Shown piece after piece: positions 1,200 through 8,083 of a DNA stretch of 40,251 bases. Within the stretch, counting starts at the first letter, position 1; every line of letters starts with the position of its first letter. The notes below the pieces were generated by a model. It saw only the letters and a program-made list of their open reading frames with translations, was not told the DNA's origin and made no database searches. This DNA is from Paludibacteraceae bacterium. GTDB lineage: Bacteria > Bacteroidota > Bacteroidia > Bacteroidales > Paludibacteraceae. The DNA is taken from contig JAFTZQ010000007.1 in the NCBI GenBank assembly GCA_017464475.1, positions 1-40,251 on the forward strand, given 5' to 3'. The position numbers and the translations under genes were made by a program.

Positions 1200-1661
1200 A
1201 TGAAAGAAATTAATAAAAATGAAGAACTGCAATCACGCAGGCAATTCTTTAAGGCAGCAGCGAAACGCGCACTTCCCATTATTGGAGCAATTGCAGTTTT
1301 TACGAATCCATGTCTTACTTCAGTTGCAGAGGCTTCGTCTATGGCAGCCCCGATGGGATGTAATAGAGAATCACCATGCTCTGGTAGTTGTTATACTGGC
1401 TGTAGCAGTAGTTGTAAAGGTTCATGCAGAGGAGATTGTACCGGAAGGTGCACGAATACATGCAAAGGCGGATGTAGCAGAACATGTACAGCAGATTGTG
1501 CAGACTCATGTAGTTGGTCTTGTGTAGGAAGTTGTAGGAAATCATGCTTAGACACATGTAGCGGAGCATGTATGGGGCGTTGCCAAGGCACTTGCGAGTC
1601 TTTGTGTTATGGGACATGTTCCGGTAGTTGTCGGGCTGATTGTGCAAATAGTAATTATTAA
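1200..1661 (+). CDS. CXXX-repeat radical SAM target peptide with Tat signal
   Basis: A 153-aa precursor of a ribosomally made, modified peptide. Residues 12-18 read SRRQFFK, a twin-arginine motif, followed by the hydrophobic stretch ALPIIGAIAVF and a likely AEA cleavage site after residue 45. From C60 to C148 every fourth residue is Cys: 23 cysteines in 22 unbroken CXXX units, preceded by C54. The three residues between cysteines are mostly small or polar (Gly, Ser, Thr, Arg, Asp). This matches the family described by Haft and Basu as Cys-Xaa-Xaa-Xaa repeat radical SAM target proteins. The modification is unknown; many radical SAM/SPASM enzymes make thioether or C-C links. The maturases follow within 15 bp, and TatA/TatC are in the same operon, so export of the modified, folded peptide by Tat is the natural inference. 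Confidence 0.9.
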   Translation: MKEINKNEELQSRRQFFKAAAKRALPIIGAIAVFTNPCLTSVAEASSMAAPMGCNRESPCSGSCYTGCSSSCKGSCRGDCTGRCTNTCKGGCSRTCTADCADSCSWSCVGSCRKSCLDTCSGACMGRCQGTCESLCYGTCSGSCRADCANSNY

Positions 1662-1675
1662 GCTATAGCAAATAT

Positions 1676-2896
1676 ATGTCTACTATTCGGAAACGGAACG
1701 ATGTATGGCATGAAAAGATGGCAAAAAACATTACGTTTATTGTCACTAAAGACTGTCAGCTTGCGTGCAAGTATTGTTATCTCGTTGGGAAAAATGAAAA
1801 AGAAAGGATGCCGTGGAATGTTGCAAAGGCAGCGATAGATTATATACTAGACCACGAAAATGATCCTAACTTTGCATATGATAGTGTTGTATGGGATTTT
1901 ATAGGAGGCGAACCATTTCTGGAAATCGACCTAATAGATAGAATCTGTGATTATATAAAGACAGAACTATTTCGTCGTAATCATCAATGGTTCAACTCCT
2001 ATAGGTTCTCGTTTTCTACGAATGGGATTAATTATGCGAGCGATAAAGTCCAGAATTTCATAAAGAAAAATTACAATCATCTATCTATAGGAATTACTAT
2101 TGATGGTACAGAGCGCAAACACGATTTGAATCGTGTGTACAAGAATTCCGGACGCGGGTCTTATCAAGATGTGGTATGCAATATTCCGTTATGGATTAAA
2201 CAATTTCCTCACTCGGCGACTAAAGTAACTATTAGTAGTGCTGATATTCCTTATATACACGAATCAGTCCTTCATTTGTACGGGTTAGGTATACATGAAG
2301 TGAATATCAACTGCGTGTTTGAGGATGTTTGGCAAAATGGCGATGACCAACTTTTTGAAGAGCAATTAATGCGTTTGGCTGATAGTATTATAGAACGTGA
2401 GTTATACAAAAATTTCAGTTGTTCTTTTTTCAACGAAAATATGGGCAAACCATTAGATTGTAAGTTGCAGAACGGCAATTGGTGCGGTGCTGGCAGGATG
2501 CTTTCAATTGATGCTGAGGGGAATTTTTATCCTTGTACGCGGTTCGCCCAATATTCTCTTCGAGATAAAGAAGCCTGGATAATTGGAAACATTCATGACG
2601 GCATAGACTATAACAAAATACGTCCGTTTTTGACATTGGACAGATGCACACAATCTGCGCCAGAATGTATTGACTGTGAGGTCGCGAGTGGATGCGCCTG
2701 GTGTCAAGGAGAGAACTTCGATGCCGCGCACACACACACCGTTTTTGAACGCTCCACCGCCATTTGCAAAATGCATAAAGCACGTGTGCGTGCGAACAAC
2801 TATTATTGGAATAAACTCTACCGCAAACTGGAGTTAGATGGTCAACGTGAAGAGTTCGAAGCCAACAATGCACATGTCAAACCGGAAATTTCTTAA
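1676..2896 (+). CDS. Radical SAM/SPASM peptide maturase, CXXX-repeat target family
   Basis: A 406-aa enzyme. Residues 27-34 hold the radical SAM cluster motif C-QLA-C-KY-C (C27, C31, C34), after a typical first strand (NITFIVTKD). The core TIM-barrel part covers roughly residues 18-240 and includes IGGEPFLE, a GGE-type SAM-binding motif. The C-terminal SPASM part (about 255-380) contains CKLQNGNWCGAGRMLSIDAE, a CTRF cysteine, then a dense cluster ending CIDCEVASGCAWC and ICKMHK, enough for two auxiliary iron-sulfur clusters. It should bind SAM and modify the cysteine-rich precursor encoded 15 bp upstream. Start chosen at ATG 1676, which leaves 14 bp after the precursor stop. Assignment to the CXXX-target maturase family comes from these motifs and from the gene order. 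Confidence 0.9.
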   Translation: MSTIRKRNDVWHEKMAKNITFIVTKDCQLACKYCYLVGKNEKERMPWNVAKAAIDYILDHENDPNFAYDSVVWDFIGGEPFLEIDLIDRICDYIKTELFRRNHQWFNSYRFSFSTNGINYASDKVQNFIKKNYNHLSIGITIDGTERKHDLNRVYKNSGRGSYQDVVCNIPLWIKQFPHSATKVTISSADIPYIHESVLHLYGLGIHEVNINCVFEDVWQNGDDQLFEEQLMRLADSIIERELYKNFSCSFFNENMGKPLDCKLQNGNWCGAGRMLSIDAEGNFYPCTRFAQYSLRDKEAWIIGNIHDGIDYNKIRPFLTLDRCTQSAPECIDCEVASGCAWCQGENFDAAHTHTVFERSTAICKMHKARVRANNYYWNKLYRKLELDGQREEFEANNAHVKPEIS

Positions 2897-2900
2897 TGCC

Positions 2901-3845
2901 ATGCTACAATACTTAGTTATTTTATTGGACGATACGAGCGTGGCATATTGCCATGCTGAGAACCCACTAAAGGAACGCTATCTCATTTCGTTGAATACTC
3001 TAAAAAAGGCGATTCTCTTTGGGATGAAAGAGAACTTAATGATTCAGTATGTCTACCCCGAGTATGACTTACCGAAAGAATACAGCGAACTTATTGAGTC
3101 CATCGACCATATAAAAATAGGTCATGACATAAAAGTTTATAATGATGTGACTCTTTCTTCTACCGCAGGAACTGCAATATTGCGTACTACTGTTGCGGAT
3201 TTTATATCGAAACAGTATGATATCGCTGCGATGTTGTCACAAGTTACTCGCCTTATTATCTGCTTGAAAGATGCAGAGCTATTTCAGGACGAACAAATTG
3301 AGCAATATAAGAAAGCATTGTCCACACTCAGTGCAATGGTGCTTAACTTACGTAAGTCTGATTATCAATCCGAAGTGAATATTCTGACAGACAGATTAAC
3401 ATTGAAAGAGATGCACAACTGCGGCGCAGGTGACAGCAATATCACACTGGCCCCGAATGGCAAATTCTATCTTTGTCCGGCATTCTACTATGATGAGAAA
3501 ATGGGGATTAGCAACCGACTGAATCACCACAAACCATCTTCGGAAAGAAGCGTCGGCGATTTGGAAACAGGCTTGCAAATTCCTAATCCTCAGTTGCTCA
3601 AACTCGACCATGCGCCCTTGTGCCGTATTTGCGATGCGTATCATTGCAACCGCTGTATCTGGCTGAACCAAAAACTGACGTGGGACAATAATACGCCTTC
3701 GCATCAGCAATGTGTATTGGCGCACTTGGAGCGTAATGCTGCACGCACTTTGCAGCAACAACTAAGGGCGGTCGGACTCAATGCCGGAGAAGAAATAAAA
3801 GAAATTGATTATCTTGACCCGTTTGATGTACGGGAAAAATTCTAA
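2901..3845 (+). CDS. CXXX repeat peptide maturase, SPASM-like partner protein
   Basis: A 314-aa protein from ATG 2901 (MLQYLVILLDDTSVAYCHAE), 4 bp after the maturase stop. In-frame starts at 2838, 2868 and 2874 would overlap the upstream gene, and the sequence before 2901 looks non-conserved. It has no CX3CX2C radical SAM motif. Its C-terminal third keeps a SPASM-like set of cysteines: C174, C192 (in APNGKFYLCP), C241, C244, C249, C252 and C271, with the core LCRICDAYHCNRC. It fits the protein called CXXX repeat peptide maturase that accompanies the radical SAM enzyme in these loci. A role in binding the precursor or carrying auxiliary clusters is inference. Confidence 0.8.
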   Translation: MLQYLVILLDDTSVAYCHAENPLKERYLISLNTLKKAILFGMKENLMIQYVYPEYDLPKEYSELIESIDHIKIGHDIKVYNDVTLSSTAGTAILRTTVADFISKQYDIAAMLSQVTRLIICLKDAELFQDEQIEQYKKALSTLSAMVLNLRKSDYQSEVNILTDRLTLKEMHNCGAGDSNITLAPNGKFYLCPAFYYDEKMGISNRLNHHKPSSERSVGDLETGLQIPNPQLLKLDHAPLCRICDAYHCNRCIWLNQKLTWDNNTPSHQQCVLAHLERNAARTLQQQLRAVGLNAGEEIKEIDYLDPFDVREKF

Positions 3846-3850
3846 CAATT

Positions 3851-4120
3851 ATGAAAAAATTAGTAGGTCAGGTAACTCCTGAGGAAAGAAACGAAATTCA
3901 GGCTCTTTTTGAGCGCCGAAATGGATTAAACGAATTGGCTAAGATTCTCACTGCTGATAATGCAGAATTATACGAGAAACTTGTGAATGATATGGCCGAG
4001 ACTAGCTCAAAATTCCAAAAATGGTGGGATAAAATGTCCCAAAAATACCAATGGGAGTCAACTAAAAATGGTAACTGGGAAATAAATTTTGAATCCTGCG
4101 AAATATATCTCGTAAATTAA
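3851..4120 (+). CDS. CXXX repeat peptide modification system protein
   Basis: An 89-aa cytoplasmic protein, 5 bp after the preceding gene. It starts [20 protein letters not shown], is largely helical and charged, carries a tryptophan-rich middle (KWWDKM, then YQWES) and ends ESCEIYLVN. It matches in size and position the small third protein of CXXX-repeat modification loci. The helical N-terminus ([19 protein letters not shown]) could serve as a docking module, but this is a guess. No enzymatic motif is visible. Confidence 0.75.
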
Positions 4121-4131
4121 ATATTTTTCGT

Positions 4132-4371
4132 ATGTTAAATATGATTTTACTCTTCATCGGAACAACGGAAATCATCGTTATTGGTGGCATCGCACTCCTT
4201 ATCTTCGGCGGAAAGAAACTGCCTGAACTCATGCGAGGGTTAGGCAAGGGAGTTAAAGAGTTCAAGGAGGGGATGAACGAAGTTAAAGAAGACATAAACA
4301 ACAACGACGAACAACCGCAACGCGAAGAACAGAAAAAAGAGGAAACTCCGCAAGAGCCGAAGGATGAGTGA
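4132..4371 (+). CDS. tatA: Sec-independent protein translocase subunit TatA
   Basis: A 79-aa protein with the TatA layout: a short N-terminal membrane helix ([20 protein letters not shown]), the FGGKKLPEL hinge, an amphipathic helix ([19 protein letters not shown]) and a polar Glu/Gln/Lys-rich tail. It forms the pore-like part of the twin-arginine pathway, which exports folded proteins. It overlaps tatC by 8 bp and lies 11 bp after the modification-system gene, inside the CXXX operon. With no tatB visible, this is the minimal TatAC form usual in Bacteroidetes. The only Tat-type signal I noticed in the window is on the CXXX precursor at 1200. Confidence 0.93.
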
Positions 4372-5146
4372 TGACAACCAAATGCTGACATTTGGCGGAC
4401 ACCTGGAGGTGCTCCGTCGGATGTTGTTTCGGGTGTTGATCGTGACAGCCGTTTTTGCTTGTGCAATCTTTTGCTTCAAAGACACCACTTTTGACTTGCT
4501 GCTGGCTCCAAGCAAAAGCGACTTTTGTTTATATCATTGGATTGAGCGTTCTTTCGCATGGGCGGGATATGATTTCCACTTCGCGCCATTCGAAGTGGAC
4601 TTGATTGCAACTGACCTTAGTAGCCAGTTTATGACGCATATTTCCACCTCGCTCTATCTCGGATTACTTTGCGCATCCCCATATATCTTGTTTGAACTAT
4701 TCCGCTTTATTTCCCCGGCGCTCTATGAAAACGAACGCAAGTATTCTATTCCAGTTCTGCTCACCATCTATACGCTTTTTATTGTTGGTGTATTGATGAG
4801 TTATTTTATCCTCTTTCCTATTTCTTTCCGTTTCTTGGGAACTTACTCCGTTGCAGAACAAGTACATAGTACTATTACGTTGGATAGTTATATCTCTACT
4901 TTTGTAACACTTACATTAGTAATGGGTGTTGTGTTCCAGTTGCCAGTTATTGCTTATTTCTTAGCAAAACTGGGCTTCATTGATAGTGAAATGCTGGCAA
5001 AATATCGTCAATACGCGTTTCTCATAATAATGATAGTGGCAGCAATCATTACACCACCTGATTTGATGACATTGATACTCGTTACTATTCCCTTATACTT
5101 ACTTTACGAAGTAAGCATTGTGGTTACTAAGCACGTCTCAAAATAA
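4364..5146 (+). CDS. tatC: Sec-independent protein translocase subunit TatC
   Basis: A 260-aa membrane protein with six predicted helices. It has the TatC N-terminal signature ([20 protein letters not shown]) and the conserved acidic [11 protein letters not shown] loop after helix 2. TatC binds the SRRxFxK motif of Tat substrates and recruits TatA. It starts inside the last codons of tatA and is the last gene of the island operon. The stop codon is followed at once by a TATACCTTTGC sequence and about 190 bp later by a strong terminator. Whether this is the genome's only tatC cannot be seen here. Confidence 0.94.
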
Positions 5147-5554: not shown

Positions 5555-6925
5555 ATGTATAAGGAACGGAAAATTGATGCTGCATTATTAGAGTGGGCTA
5601 AAAGCAGTAACCACAAGCCTTTGTTATTACGTGGTGCACGTCAGGTAGGAAAATCAACCGCTGTCCGGCATTTGGGAGAGCAGTTCGAGAGTTTTGTGGA
5701 GATTAACTTTGATAAGCAAAAGTCTTTCCATCCGCTCTTTAATGGCGACTTGGATGCACATGTGATTGCATCGCAAATAGCCAATCTGGTCGGCAAGCAA
5801 GTGCAACCCGGCAAAACATTGCTGTTCTTCGATGAGATACAAGCCTGCCCCAATGCCATACTTAGTCTGCGGTTCTTTGCCGAGGATTATCCTCAGTTGC
5901 ATGTGATAGCTGCCGGTTCACTATTGGAATTTGCATTAGCCGAACTACCCACTTTTGGCGTCGGAAGAATGAAATCGCTGTTTATGTTTCCCATGAGTTT
6001 TGATGAGTTCCTTATGGCGACAGGGAAATCCGGACTGATCGCTGAACGTCAGAAGGCCTCACCTCTGCAACCGCTAAACGAAGTGTTCTATACACAGCTT
6101 GTGCGGCAGTTCCGCAATTATATCATGATTGGCGGCCTCCCGGAAGTGGTCTGCAAATGGGATGAGACAGGTGATTATCTGCAATGTCAGGAACTGCAGG
6201 ATGAACTGATTCTTTCCTATGAGGATGATTTTGCCAAGTATAAAAAGAAAGTTGATCCTGTTCTTCTGCGTCAGGTATTACGAAGTGCGGCATCGCAGAT
6301 TACCAATAAGTTCGTGTATGCGCAAGCGGCAAGCGAAAAAGCATCCAAAGTGCGTGAAGCGCTGGATCTGCTAATAATGGCTGGTCTGTTGATTCCTGCT
6401 ACGCGTACATCGGCTAATGGTTTGCCATTAGGGGACGAGGCGGATCACTCCTATCAAAAGATATTATTGTTTGATAGCGGTATCTTGCTCCGGCTTTTGA
6501 ATATGTCGCTGGGTTCGGTTCGGCAGATTACAGAGGATATTCTGACTGCCTCTGAGACCGATTTGGTCAACAAAGGAAAGATTTCAGAGATGATAGCCGG
6601 CTTGGAGATTATCAAAAACATGCCCTCTAACCTGCGGCATGAGTTGTACTATTGGACGCGGGAGGAGAAAAACAGCCAATCAGAAGTGGATTATCTGGAG
6701 TCTTTCAATGCGCGTGTACTACCAATCGAAGTCAAAGCAGAAACACAGGGTGGAATGAAAAGTCTTTGGAATTTTATGCGCGAGAAGAACTTAAATTATG
6801 CCTTGCGATGCTCTTTGGAGAATTTCGGGCAGTTTGATTACGAAGACAAAATAGCGGAAGGGGCTGTTCGTCATGTAGATGTAATTCCTTTGTACGCTAT
6901 AGCGCAAATGCCAATATTTCAGTAG
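5555..6925 (+). CDS. AAA-family ATPase with DUF4143-type C-terminal domain
   Basis: A 456-aa protein from ATG 5555 (MYKERKIDAALLEW). An upstream TTG at 5513 is in frame but lies inside the 33-bp repeats, so I prefer the ATG, which matches how this family usually begins. Residues 27-35 are a Walker A loop (GARQVGKST), LLFFDEIQ near 90 is Walker B, and AAGSLLEFAL near 125 fits sensor 1. The C-terminal third (DYLESFNARVLPIEVKAE) has the Glu...EVKAE pattern of a PD-(D/E)XK-like fold found in DUF4143 proteins. The family is very abundant in Bacteroidetes, often in many copies per genome, and its function is unclear. It is likely co-transcribed with the next gene (6 bp gap). Confidence 0.88.
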   Translation: MYKERKIDAALLEWAKSSNHKPLLLRGARQVGKSTAVRHLGEQFESFVEINFDKQKSFHPLFNGDLDAHVIASQIANLVGKQVQPGKTLLFFDEIQACPNAILSLRFFAEDYPQLHVIAAGSLLEFALAELPTFGVGRMKSLFMFPMSFDEFLMATGKSGLIAERQKASPLQPLNEVFYTQLVRQFRNYIMIGGLPEVVCKWDETGDYLQCQELQDELILSYEDDFAKYKKKVDPVLLRQVLRSAASQITNKFVYAQAASEKASKVREALDLLIMAGLLIPATRTSANGLPLGDEADHSYQKILLFDSGILLRLLNMSLGSVRQITEDILTASETDLVNKGKISEMIAGLEIIKNMPSNLRHELYYWTREEKNSQSEVDYLESFNARVLPIEVKAETQGGMKSLWNFMREKNLNYALRCSLENFGQFDYEDKIAEGAVRHVDVIPLYAIAQMPIFQ

Positions 6926-6931
6926 CCGATT

Positions 6932-8083
6932 ATGTTAGAAGACTACCGTTTTAGCGAAGATATGGCATATACCTCCCACCGTCTAATGATTCGGGGGAAG
7001 GACATCGAGATCGGCGGCGTGCTGGGCGCGGCGTTGGTATCTGCGTTGCTGGTGGACACGGACGAAGGCAACCGCCGCGGCATCGCCATCGACAGCGAAG
7101 CGGAGCAGATAGCGTGGATCAAGAAATATGAGCGCGAGGTGCGCCGCGAGGAATGGGGTCTGCTCACCGTGGAGACCCGGCTGCTGAGCGAGGCGTATAT
7201 ATCCGTCGCGACTGAAGAAATGAGCTTTGCGGACATCTGTCCGAACCGCCTGCTTCTGGACTTGGCTTTACGCCTGACCGACCGCTATATGCGCTATCTG
7301 GTCACCGAGACTTTCTGCGCACATATATGGGAGTGCTGCCCGTGGCAGGCTCCTTTTGCGAGTTGGCTGCTCGCCGCAGCGCGGGTAGAGACACGCCGCC
7401 AACGCTTCATCCAAATGGACTGGACAGATCCCGCCTTAGTGACCGCACTAGCCGATGAGACCAATAATCAATCACCAATGACCAATGACCAATCATCCCC
7501 GACCTTGGTGTTCGAAGGCGAGGCGGCAGAGGATATCATGTTCCGCTACCTGAAATGGGTTTGGACGAGTTATCAGGCGCAACTGCGCGAGATACCGGGT
7601 TCGCAACCGCGGGCACCCAAGCACCGCAATTTCATCGTAGAGCAAGAGACTGATTGGGGATTCGTCATGGACGAAGTGAACGCGCTGAACGAGGACTCGC
7701 AACGCATCTTTGCGCAATGGATGCTCAATTGGCAGCGGTTCGTCACCAGGCACCTCAAACCGCAGAAACCGGTGCGTTTCTGGACCGAAGAGACATCGGA
7801 GTTACAGCAACGTCAACTGACCCAATACCTGCGCCTTCAAGAAAAAGAGTGGGATTACTATAAATGCCTCTCCGCCGCCATCTATGCCATGCGGCAGATG
7901 GGATACGTGCGCCGCGCGTGCTCCGTGCCGGATATAACACGGTGGATGAGCGAGGAACTGTCCAAAGACTATACAACCAAGAACAACCGCGACCAGTTCC
8001 GCCGAGCTTGGAACGAACTGAGCCGGTATCACGAAGATGTGCGCTATTTCGTACAGGAACTACAGTACCTTTTAGAAGCCTGA
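6932..8083 (+). CDS. Conserved hypothetical protein, mostly helical
   Basis: A 383-aa protein that I do not recognise. There is no signal peptide or membrane segment; it looks like a soluble helical protein rich in Trp and Arg. Residues 177-188 (TNNQSPMTNDQS) are encoded by five 7-bp tandem units (7461-7495) and look like a repeat-derived insertion between two folded parts. It begins 6 bp after the ATPase stop and is probably in the same transcript, but base composition changes from AT-rich to GC-richer near 6990, so the pair may have come together secondarily. No catalytic motif is visible. Confidence 0.6.
   Translation: MLEDYRFSEDMAYTSHRLMIRGKDIEIGGVLGAALVSALLVDTDEGNRRGIAIDSEAEQIAWIKKYEREVRREEWGLLTVETRLLSEAYISVATEEMSFADICPNRLLLDLALRLTDRYMRYLVTETFCAHIWECCPWQAPFASWLLAAARVETRRQRFIQMDWTDPALVTALADETNNQSPMTNDQSSPTLVFEGEAAEDIMFRYLKWVWTSYQAQLREIPGSQPRAPKHRNFIVEQETDWGFVMDEVNALNEDSQRIFAQWMLNWQRFVTRHLKPQKPVRFWTEETSELQQRQLTQYLRLQEKEWDYYKCLSAAIYAMRQMGYVRRACSVPDITRWMSEELSKDYTTKNNRDQFRRAWNELSRYHEDVRYFVQELQYLLEA
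7461..7495 (+). repeat. Period-7 tandem repeat inside a coding sequence
   Basis: Five 7-bp units of the type CCAATGA (variants CCAATAA, TCAATCA, CCAATCA). Read in frame as part of the 383-aa protein. Confidence 0.8.

Follow-up and report, generated by a model that had tools for sequence, protein, structure and literature searches.

In this study, we asked why an operon for a cysteine-repeat peptide should carry translocase genes of its own. The operon occupies positions 1200-5146 of a 40,251-nucleotide stretch of DNA from a Paludibacteraceae bacterium of the gut (assembly GCA_017464475.1, contig JAFTZQ010000007.1; the whole stretch is called the window here). Six genes run there in one direction on the forward strand, with gaps of at most 14 nt apart from an 8-nt overlap between tatA and tatC, and encode a CXXX-repeat precursor, three maturation proteins and the two components of a twin-arginine translocation (Tat) system. 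The Tat route is normally reserved for folded proteins. The answer that we regard as likely is that the operon makes a peptide resembling the ribosomally synthesized and post-translationally modified peptides (RiPPs), which would be modified in the cytoplasm and exported by its own TatA-TatC pair. Sequence comparison points this way through gene order, linkage, motif conservation, the co-occurrence and copy number of TatC and the apparent replacement of tatAC by ATP-binding cassette (ABC) exporters.

The maturation genes belong to known families. The 153-aa precursor (1200..1661) matches the CXXX-repeat model TIGR04114 with 29.5 bits (cut-off 20) and contains the twin-arginine motif SRRQFFK (1233..1253), the sequence AEA and 25 Cys residues, 23 of which form one unbroken run at an exact spacing of four (1377..1643); in 20,000 shuffles of the mature part the longest run at this spacing was eight, so that the run is not a product of chance. 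The gene for a radical S-adenosylmethionine (SAM)/SPASM maturase starts 14 nt past the precursor stop (1676..2896; TIGR04115, 626 bits, cut-off 350) and is followed by those for a pseudo-radical-SAM partner (2901..3845; TIGR04119, 204 bits, cut-off 150) and a small accessory protein (3851..4120; TIGR04116, 106 bits, cut-off 50), and then by tatA (4132..4371; TIGR01411, TatA/E, 66.5 bits, cut-off 53.9; PF02416) and tatC (4364..5146; TIGR00945, TatC, 171.6 bits, cut-off 132.7; PF00902). NCBIfam cut-offs are passed by target repeat, maturase, partner, accessory, TatA and TatC alike; the operon is the CXXX-repeat maturation system already named by NCBIfam, followed by tatA and tatC. An earlier reading of this DNA, referred to below as the original prediction, had described the precursor motifs, the closely following radical SAM enzyme and small accessory, the overlapping tat genes and the assignment to a predicted radical SAM system, and was right on each of these points. 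With TIGR04117 the precursor scores 43.9 bits, below the cut-off of 50, and we read this model as the paralog model of one target group and not as a marker of the whole system. The Tat module has two components, as the TatB model reaches 34.9 bits in the operon, under its cut-off of 56.5.

The tat genes are found next to CXXX genes well beyond the window. Loci (L numbers) were taken from two sources: 80 loci which, being the best 80 of 326, are biased to near relatives, and 25 over-cut-off maturase matches in 23 of 250 family genomes, that of the window included. They come from Bacteroidia or groups within, the near ones often from Paludibacteraceae, except for L084 and L087 (no group) and L128 (Clostridia); this Clostridia-labelled record apart, all are from Bacteroidota samples. 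Removal of 23 copies with identical maturase cores and of L057 and L058, which lack a TIGR04115-like maturase, reduced 107 loci to 82 distinct ones, among which tatC lies within 5 kb downstream in 59, while 11 are cut by a contig end, two have tatA only and 10 have no tat gene. Counted over the 71 uncut loci, mostly Bacteroidales, tatC is on the same strand and within 5 kb downstream in 59 (L122, with about 1 kb past its accessory gene and no tat gene there, is counted as cut). The tatA start is within 100 bp of the accessory end in 52 of 57 measurable linked loci, and the CXXX gene order is kept across families. With tatC present once or twice per 2-7 Mb, we estimate that far fewer than 1% of loci would have it within 5 kb downstream by chance; the original prediction had proposed this very comparison, and it comes out in its favour. 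An even draw of 393 order genomes gave 12 CXXX carriers, three of them known and nine fetched, one of which (L229) has a copy of the L090 locus. The eight new loci comprise five linked ones (L225-L228, L232), two with a twin arginine but no nearby tat gene (L230, L231) and one with an ABC exporter (L233).

The precursor leaders are consistent with this linkage. We collected 145 CXXX open reading frames (ORFs), that is, ORFs near a maturase with at least five Cys residues at spacing four. In 137 of them the pattern RR.(.)[FL] stands ahead of the repeat (133 with RRxF and a hydrophobic residue, four near variants; consensus S-R-R-E-F-F-K), as against 34 of 4861 background ORFs with RRxF-hydrophobic within the first 60 residues, so that the conservation of the twin arginine, also raised by the original prediction, is borne out. 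Of the eight exceptions, two ORFs are truncated at a contig end, one lies antisense, one encodes a membrane protein resembling succinate dehydrogenase, and four (L062, L067, L091, L100) are short or start late, each of these four in a locus that also has a twin-arginine precursor; a twin-arginine precursor with a shorter run in L136 lies outside the 145-ORF count. A Leu-Pro pair stands 12 residues past the first Arg in 125 of the 137 precursors (1272..1277 in the window), and within the stretch searched in five more, mostly in the context K-x-x-L-P-x-x-G; 15 other Tat signals, which come almost entirely from one reductase family, all lack it at this offset. Several distant twin-arginine precursors have Ile-Pro in its place (L221, L222, L228, L230, L231, L232). 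Judging from this pattern, the element may well be the docking site of the maturase.

In our view, the strongest sign that tatAC works for the peptide comes from what happens where the twin arginine is missing. The three loci of family f19 (L218-L220), which stands outside the class, have short likely precursors with five Cys residues, of which four or five follow the CXXX order, and no twin arginine; K-T-L-P-G is retained in all three, and in each locus an ABC exporter directly follows the partner. In L233, from the window's taxonomic order, maturase and partner are fused, and an accessory, an S8 peptidase and an ABC exporter are encoded as well; the likely precursor is a 70-aa Cys-rich ORF without a twin arginine. 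This ORF scores 33.4 bits with TIGR04118 (cut-off 35), the model of the AC3_0185 family of radical-SAM-modified Cys-rich RiPPs; the maturase families are those of the window, but twin arginines are missing and the exporter and peptidase stand instead of tatAC. No tatAC was found in the loci of either lineage. Across 98 loci (82 plus 16 later ones, cut loci and L229 included), an ABC exporter is present in four of the four with RR-less likely precursors and in one of the 94 others (L085, at a distance of 4.3 kb). The scan used a single f19 exporter as its probe and required a score above 100, so that it could miss remoter ABC exporters. In the loci seen, the twin arginine goes with Tat and its absence with an ABC exporter, the RR-less cases being few but consistent. 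Loci that combine a linked tatAC with precursors lacking the motif had been named by the original prediction as evidence that would count against it; the RR-less likely precursors that we found when looking for them are these ABC-associated ones.

Could the tat genes nevertheless be a general Tat system that travels by chance with the CXXX genes, as a hitch-hiker on an island, and mainly serves other cargo? We consider this unlikely. In the TatC tree, the window tatC falls into clade I, in which 50 CXXX-linked rows from several families are joined with 100% support and none of 57 other TatC sequences is included. Further CXXX-linked groups are L082/L206 and clade II (12 Paludibacteraceae-type rows), which stands on the housekeeping TatC side (support 100/100) and looks like a housekeeping-type TatC that was taken in. 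The window maturase shares 81-82% identity with its counterparts in L063, L067 and L071, whose TatC proteins are only 47-48% identical to that of the window, whereas with Prevotella L112 the values are 77% and 71%; close maturases with distant TatC proteins suggest to us that tatC was exchanged while its slot stayed filled. The tree hints at several origins of linked TatC, but a single origin is not rejected by approximately unbiased (AU) tests, and housekeeping TatC rows form one group in about a quarter of 200 bootstrap trees.

The distribution of TatC among genomes (G numbers) points the same way. In the 250-genome family sample, TatC occurs in all 23 CXXX carriers and in 149 of the 227 other genomes (Fisher p=1.9e-4), and at least two tatC genes occur in 11 of 23 carriers and three of 227 others (Fisher p=9e-11), p-values that genome kinship makes too small; the two TatC pieces of G209 are counted as one copy, and G235, where a contig-end fragment with an accessory gene and tatAC (L197) was noticed later, as CXXX-free. 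TatC was also present in 38/38, 5/5 and 2/2 CXXX genomes probed individually, a set that shares G209 with the family sample and leaves aside the nine order-locus genomes (the genome of L090, of which L229 is a copy, was probed). In 11 of the 23 carriers (G050, G087, G158, G165, G173, G238, G067, G131, G145, G026, G142), the CXXX-linked TatC proteins are the only ones found, although in these drafts, 78-100% complete, a copy may have been missed.

Several observations weigh against a dedicated exporter, and some of them favour the hitch-hiker. The window genome has a second tatAC, on contig C13, so that the original prediction was right that the operon has a TatAC of its own, but this is not the only Tat system of the genome. 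The C13 pair directly follows the gene for an aldo/keto reductase of 471 aa, which has a lipobox and an RREFIK signal and is another twin-arginine protein available as cargo; a PF10518 scan was too insensitive for other Tat cargo (the sole CXXX precursor listed was that of the window, at E 0.26). Nor does clade II consist of linked copies alone: the TatC of L175, unlinked and next to an aldo/keto reductase, shares 65-68% identity with clade II and 51-52% with clade I and is a probable relative of the former; the tree was built without it, as L175 had wrongly been taken for the continuation of a cut CXXX contig. Whether the linked TatC proteins arose once or several times is unsettled (AU p=0.169 with the quick tree and 0.442 with 52 rows). 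Among the 82 distinct loci, ten lack a nearby tat gene and two have tatA only, and the twin-arginine loci L216, L217, L221, L230 and L231 have no tat gene nearby. Since such loci would need a tatC elsewhere, linkage is not required. The RR-less cases amount to four loci in two lineages, and a recognisable accessory protein is absent from the three f19 loci.

With regard to the unlinked loci, families f28 (L216, L217), f42 (L221, L222) and f123 (L230, L231) keep the twin arginine with no tat gene in the stretch examined, L222 being cut. TatC is found elsewhere in the f28 and f42 genomes, as it is in the genomes of unlinked twin-arginine loci generally (G1080 and G1207 were outside that check), and in two of the ten genomes with a no-tat locus, tatAC accompanies a second, complete or partial, CXXX locus (L206, L207). 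Chance travel is also hard to reconcile with a gene order conserved across families, with the exclusively CXXX-linked clade I, with ABC exporters where the twin arginine is missing and with the fact that the other tatAC adjoins a twin-arginine cargo of its own. In the window genome, each tatAC pair sits beside its own twin-arginine cargo. Among the comparison TatC loci there are 15 twin-arginine proteins longer than 200 aa, the C13 reductase included, and nearly all are alike to it. The reductase beside the L175 TatC (183-2406) has a twin-arginine signal as well, with no tatA found in the stretch examined.

We next consider what is exported. The 137 twin-arginine precursors have a median of 118 aa and 16 Cys residues, and 2318 of their 2671 Cys gaps have spacing four. 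The DNA encoding the window repeat is not a tandem array, and therefore the spacing is maintained at the protein level. The units are rich in Ser, Thr and Gly (at least one of them in 92%), no X position is fixed, and Pro occurs at six of 6954 X residues. A peptide that is unmodified or merely loaded with metal, with metal clusters that fold it for Tat and a radical SAM enzyme acting on something else, is an explanation to which we give little credence. A Cys at every fourth residue could bind metal, and Tat is known for cofactor-containing proteins (PMC6708511); but the maturase family is named for the CXXX-repeat target, the precursor and maturase genes are adjacent, and the maturase aligns with CteB, which makes thioethers in a peptide.

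A modified peptide thus remains our preferred reading, and the homology to CteB and PapB suggests the kind of chemistry. The nearest relatives of the maturase by score are the ranthipeptide enzymes PapB (192 bits; 192.4 with the equivalog NF047865, cut-off 340) and CteB, which would argue for S-C cross-links to side chains. However, the Cys-X3-Asp/Glu motif of PapB-type ranthipeptides does not apply, as the position four past a Cys is usually the next Cys, and with Asp or Glu in merely 443 of 2318 units (19%) a PapB-type Cys-Asp/Glu linkage is not the general chemistry. Within the reading of a modified peptide, an alpha-carbon thioether as in sactipeptides, or a change of the Cys itself, is a serious possibility, if in our estimate still the lesser one: the unfixed X positions, the abundance of Ser, Thr and Gly and the scarcity of Asp, Glu and Pro speak for it, the ranthipeptide relatives against it, and homology leaves the acceptor unsettled.

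In the maturase, the CX3CX2C motif (C27, C31, C34) is invariant in 21 sequences; its nearest solved relative is CteB (5wgg/5why), with a match that begins at CteB residue 92, so that an N-terminal RiPP recognition element (RRE) is lacking. The partner most probably starts at 2901, which gives it 314 aa, a length shared by many of its relatives. Across 44 sequences it has seven invariant Cys residues of SPASM type but no CX3CX2C, the only invariant Cys of that region being C17. The original prediction had taken it for a SPASM-only protein, which we reject, as a structure model predicts a whole radical-SAM plus SPASM fold, with a structural match spanning both halves. The accessory is predicted to fold as E-H-H-E-E (predicted local distance difference test, pLDDT, 93.7). 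It was considered as a possible RRE or helix-turn-helix protein: PF13936 is below cut-off, the structural matches of the confident model are middling and mostly helical hairpins, and no RRE label is among the 50 structural matches listed. Fusions of maturase and partner (L233, 8101-10266) and of partner and accessory (L216, 7436-8968; L217, 7726-9258) suggest one enzyme complex.

Taken as a mechanism, the precursor N terminus would hold two signals, the twin arginine for Tat and K-x-x-L-P-x-x-G for the grip of the maturase complex. The radical SAM enzyme, its pseudo-radical-SAM partner and the accessory would modify the CXXX region in the cytoplasm, probably with S-C cross-links, and the rigidified peptide would then pass the operon's TatA-TatC and be set free by signal peptidase; in some loci it would instead remain as a lipoprotein. 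Signal-peptidase and lipobox forms are paired in some loci, for example in L123 of Bacteroides salyersiae, where the second precursor has the sequence ILSSCDDPDDDE; a crude pattern finds a lipobox in 34 of 137 precursors, but some of these are false by eye, and we therefore speak only of some. Judging from the export signals of Bacteroidota, the lipobox-bearing precursors are possible surface lipoproteins. The interpretation of the original prediction is partly supported: the tatAC linkage and the conserved twin arginine speak for it, and its modified cysteines, a modification that would make Tat necessary and a metal-binding or structural product are conjectures. A wider idea, to which we would give somewhat less than even chances, is that dedicated Tat translocases export a whole class of radical-SAM-modified peptides, in which the leader doubles as the Tat signal, the cross-linked core is unfit for the general secretory (Sec) route, the export module is swappable (twin arginine with Tat, short RR-less precursors with ABC), a catalytic enzyme is joined by a pseudo-radical-SAM twin, and precursors with a lipobox and acidic stretches may form rigid Cys-repeat rods on the surface of gut Bacteroidales.

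The CXXX-repeat radical SAM system was reportedly described by Haft and Basu in 2011. It is the same system as that of TIGR04114, 04115, 04116, 04117 and 04119, with the repeat and all three maturation proteins passing curated cut-offs. Those models concern maturation, and added here are tatAC, the choice between Tat and ABC export, the Leu-Pro element and the pseudo-enzyme fold. As far as our searches reach, the maturation genes are known families and the Tat link is a new part of a known predicted system: tatC linkage, the conserved twin arginine, the co-occurrence and copy number of TatC and the ABC swap are new here, and among the full-text literature matches listed, which do not cover Haft and Basu 2011, we found no mention of a Tat link to a CXXX peptide.

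Related systems share single features with the window. CteB and PapB, maturases of SCIFF/ranthipeptides with Cys-rich targets, come from the same radical SAM/SPASM neighbourhood (PMC9413430, PMC8326336), whereas the window target lacks the CX3D/E pattern and its system has a separate pseudo-enzyme partner. The Bacillus subtilis TatAdCd translocase, for which one known cargo, PhoD, is given (PMC6708511), is likewise a two-component Tat with a dedicated cargo, but the window cargo is a short repeat peptide with modifying enzymes of its own. The NapA Tat signal is read by the maturation factor NapD and by the translocase (PMC3712460) and is a precedent for two readers of one signal, although NapD is a chaperone and the reader here would be a peptide-modifying complex. 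A survey of TatC reported that some 5% of species have at least two tatC loci and could do no more than suggest specialised secretion (PMC3827258); if our reading is true, the additional tatC copies in these bacteria have a concrete cargo in which they specialise. The reading also allows a test of whether Tat can take very short cross-linked peptides, and the Tat and ABC loci of one maturase family offer a natural comparison of how an export route is chosen for a modified peptide. The system can be tested in named strains with linked loci, Bacteroides salyersiae DSM 18765 and Xylanibacter rarus 109.

Some further ORFs deserve mention. L126 has eight CXXX precursor genes, which flank the maturase on both sides, and in L091 a precursor (6739-7461) continues past its CXXX part with some 100 residues of different, ordinary-looking sequence. 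Near another CXXX locus, L070 12196-13125 (the same as L047 5000-5929) encodes a membrane protein that by eye resembles succinate dehydrogenase and has a long Cys-rich tail at its C terminus, and near an unlinked one L132 (11134-12024) has a weak DnaJ-like Cys-rich stretch (PF00684, 23.3 bits, cut-off 32.7). Upstream of the operon, a 137-aa ORF (701-1114) has a Sec-like signal, a Gly/Ala-rich segment and no family match; it was considered as a part of the system and set aside, having no relatives in the comparison loci collected by then. An identical 16-mer, CGATGGGATATAACCG, stands at 673-688 and 1172-1187, ahead of this ORF and of the precursor, with no further copy in the genome within one mismatch, and the two genes are perhaps under common control.

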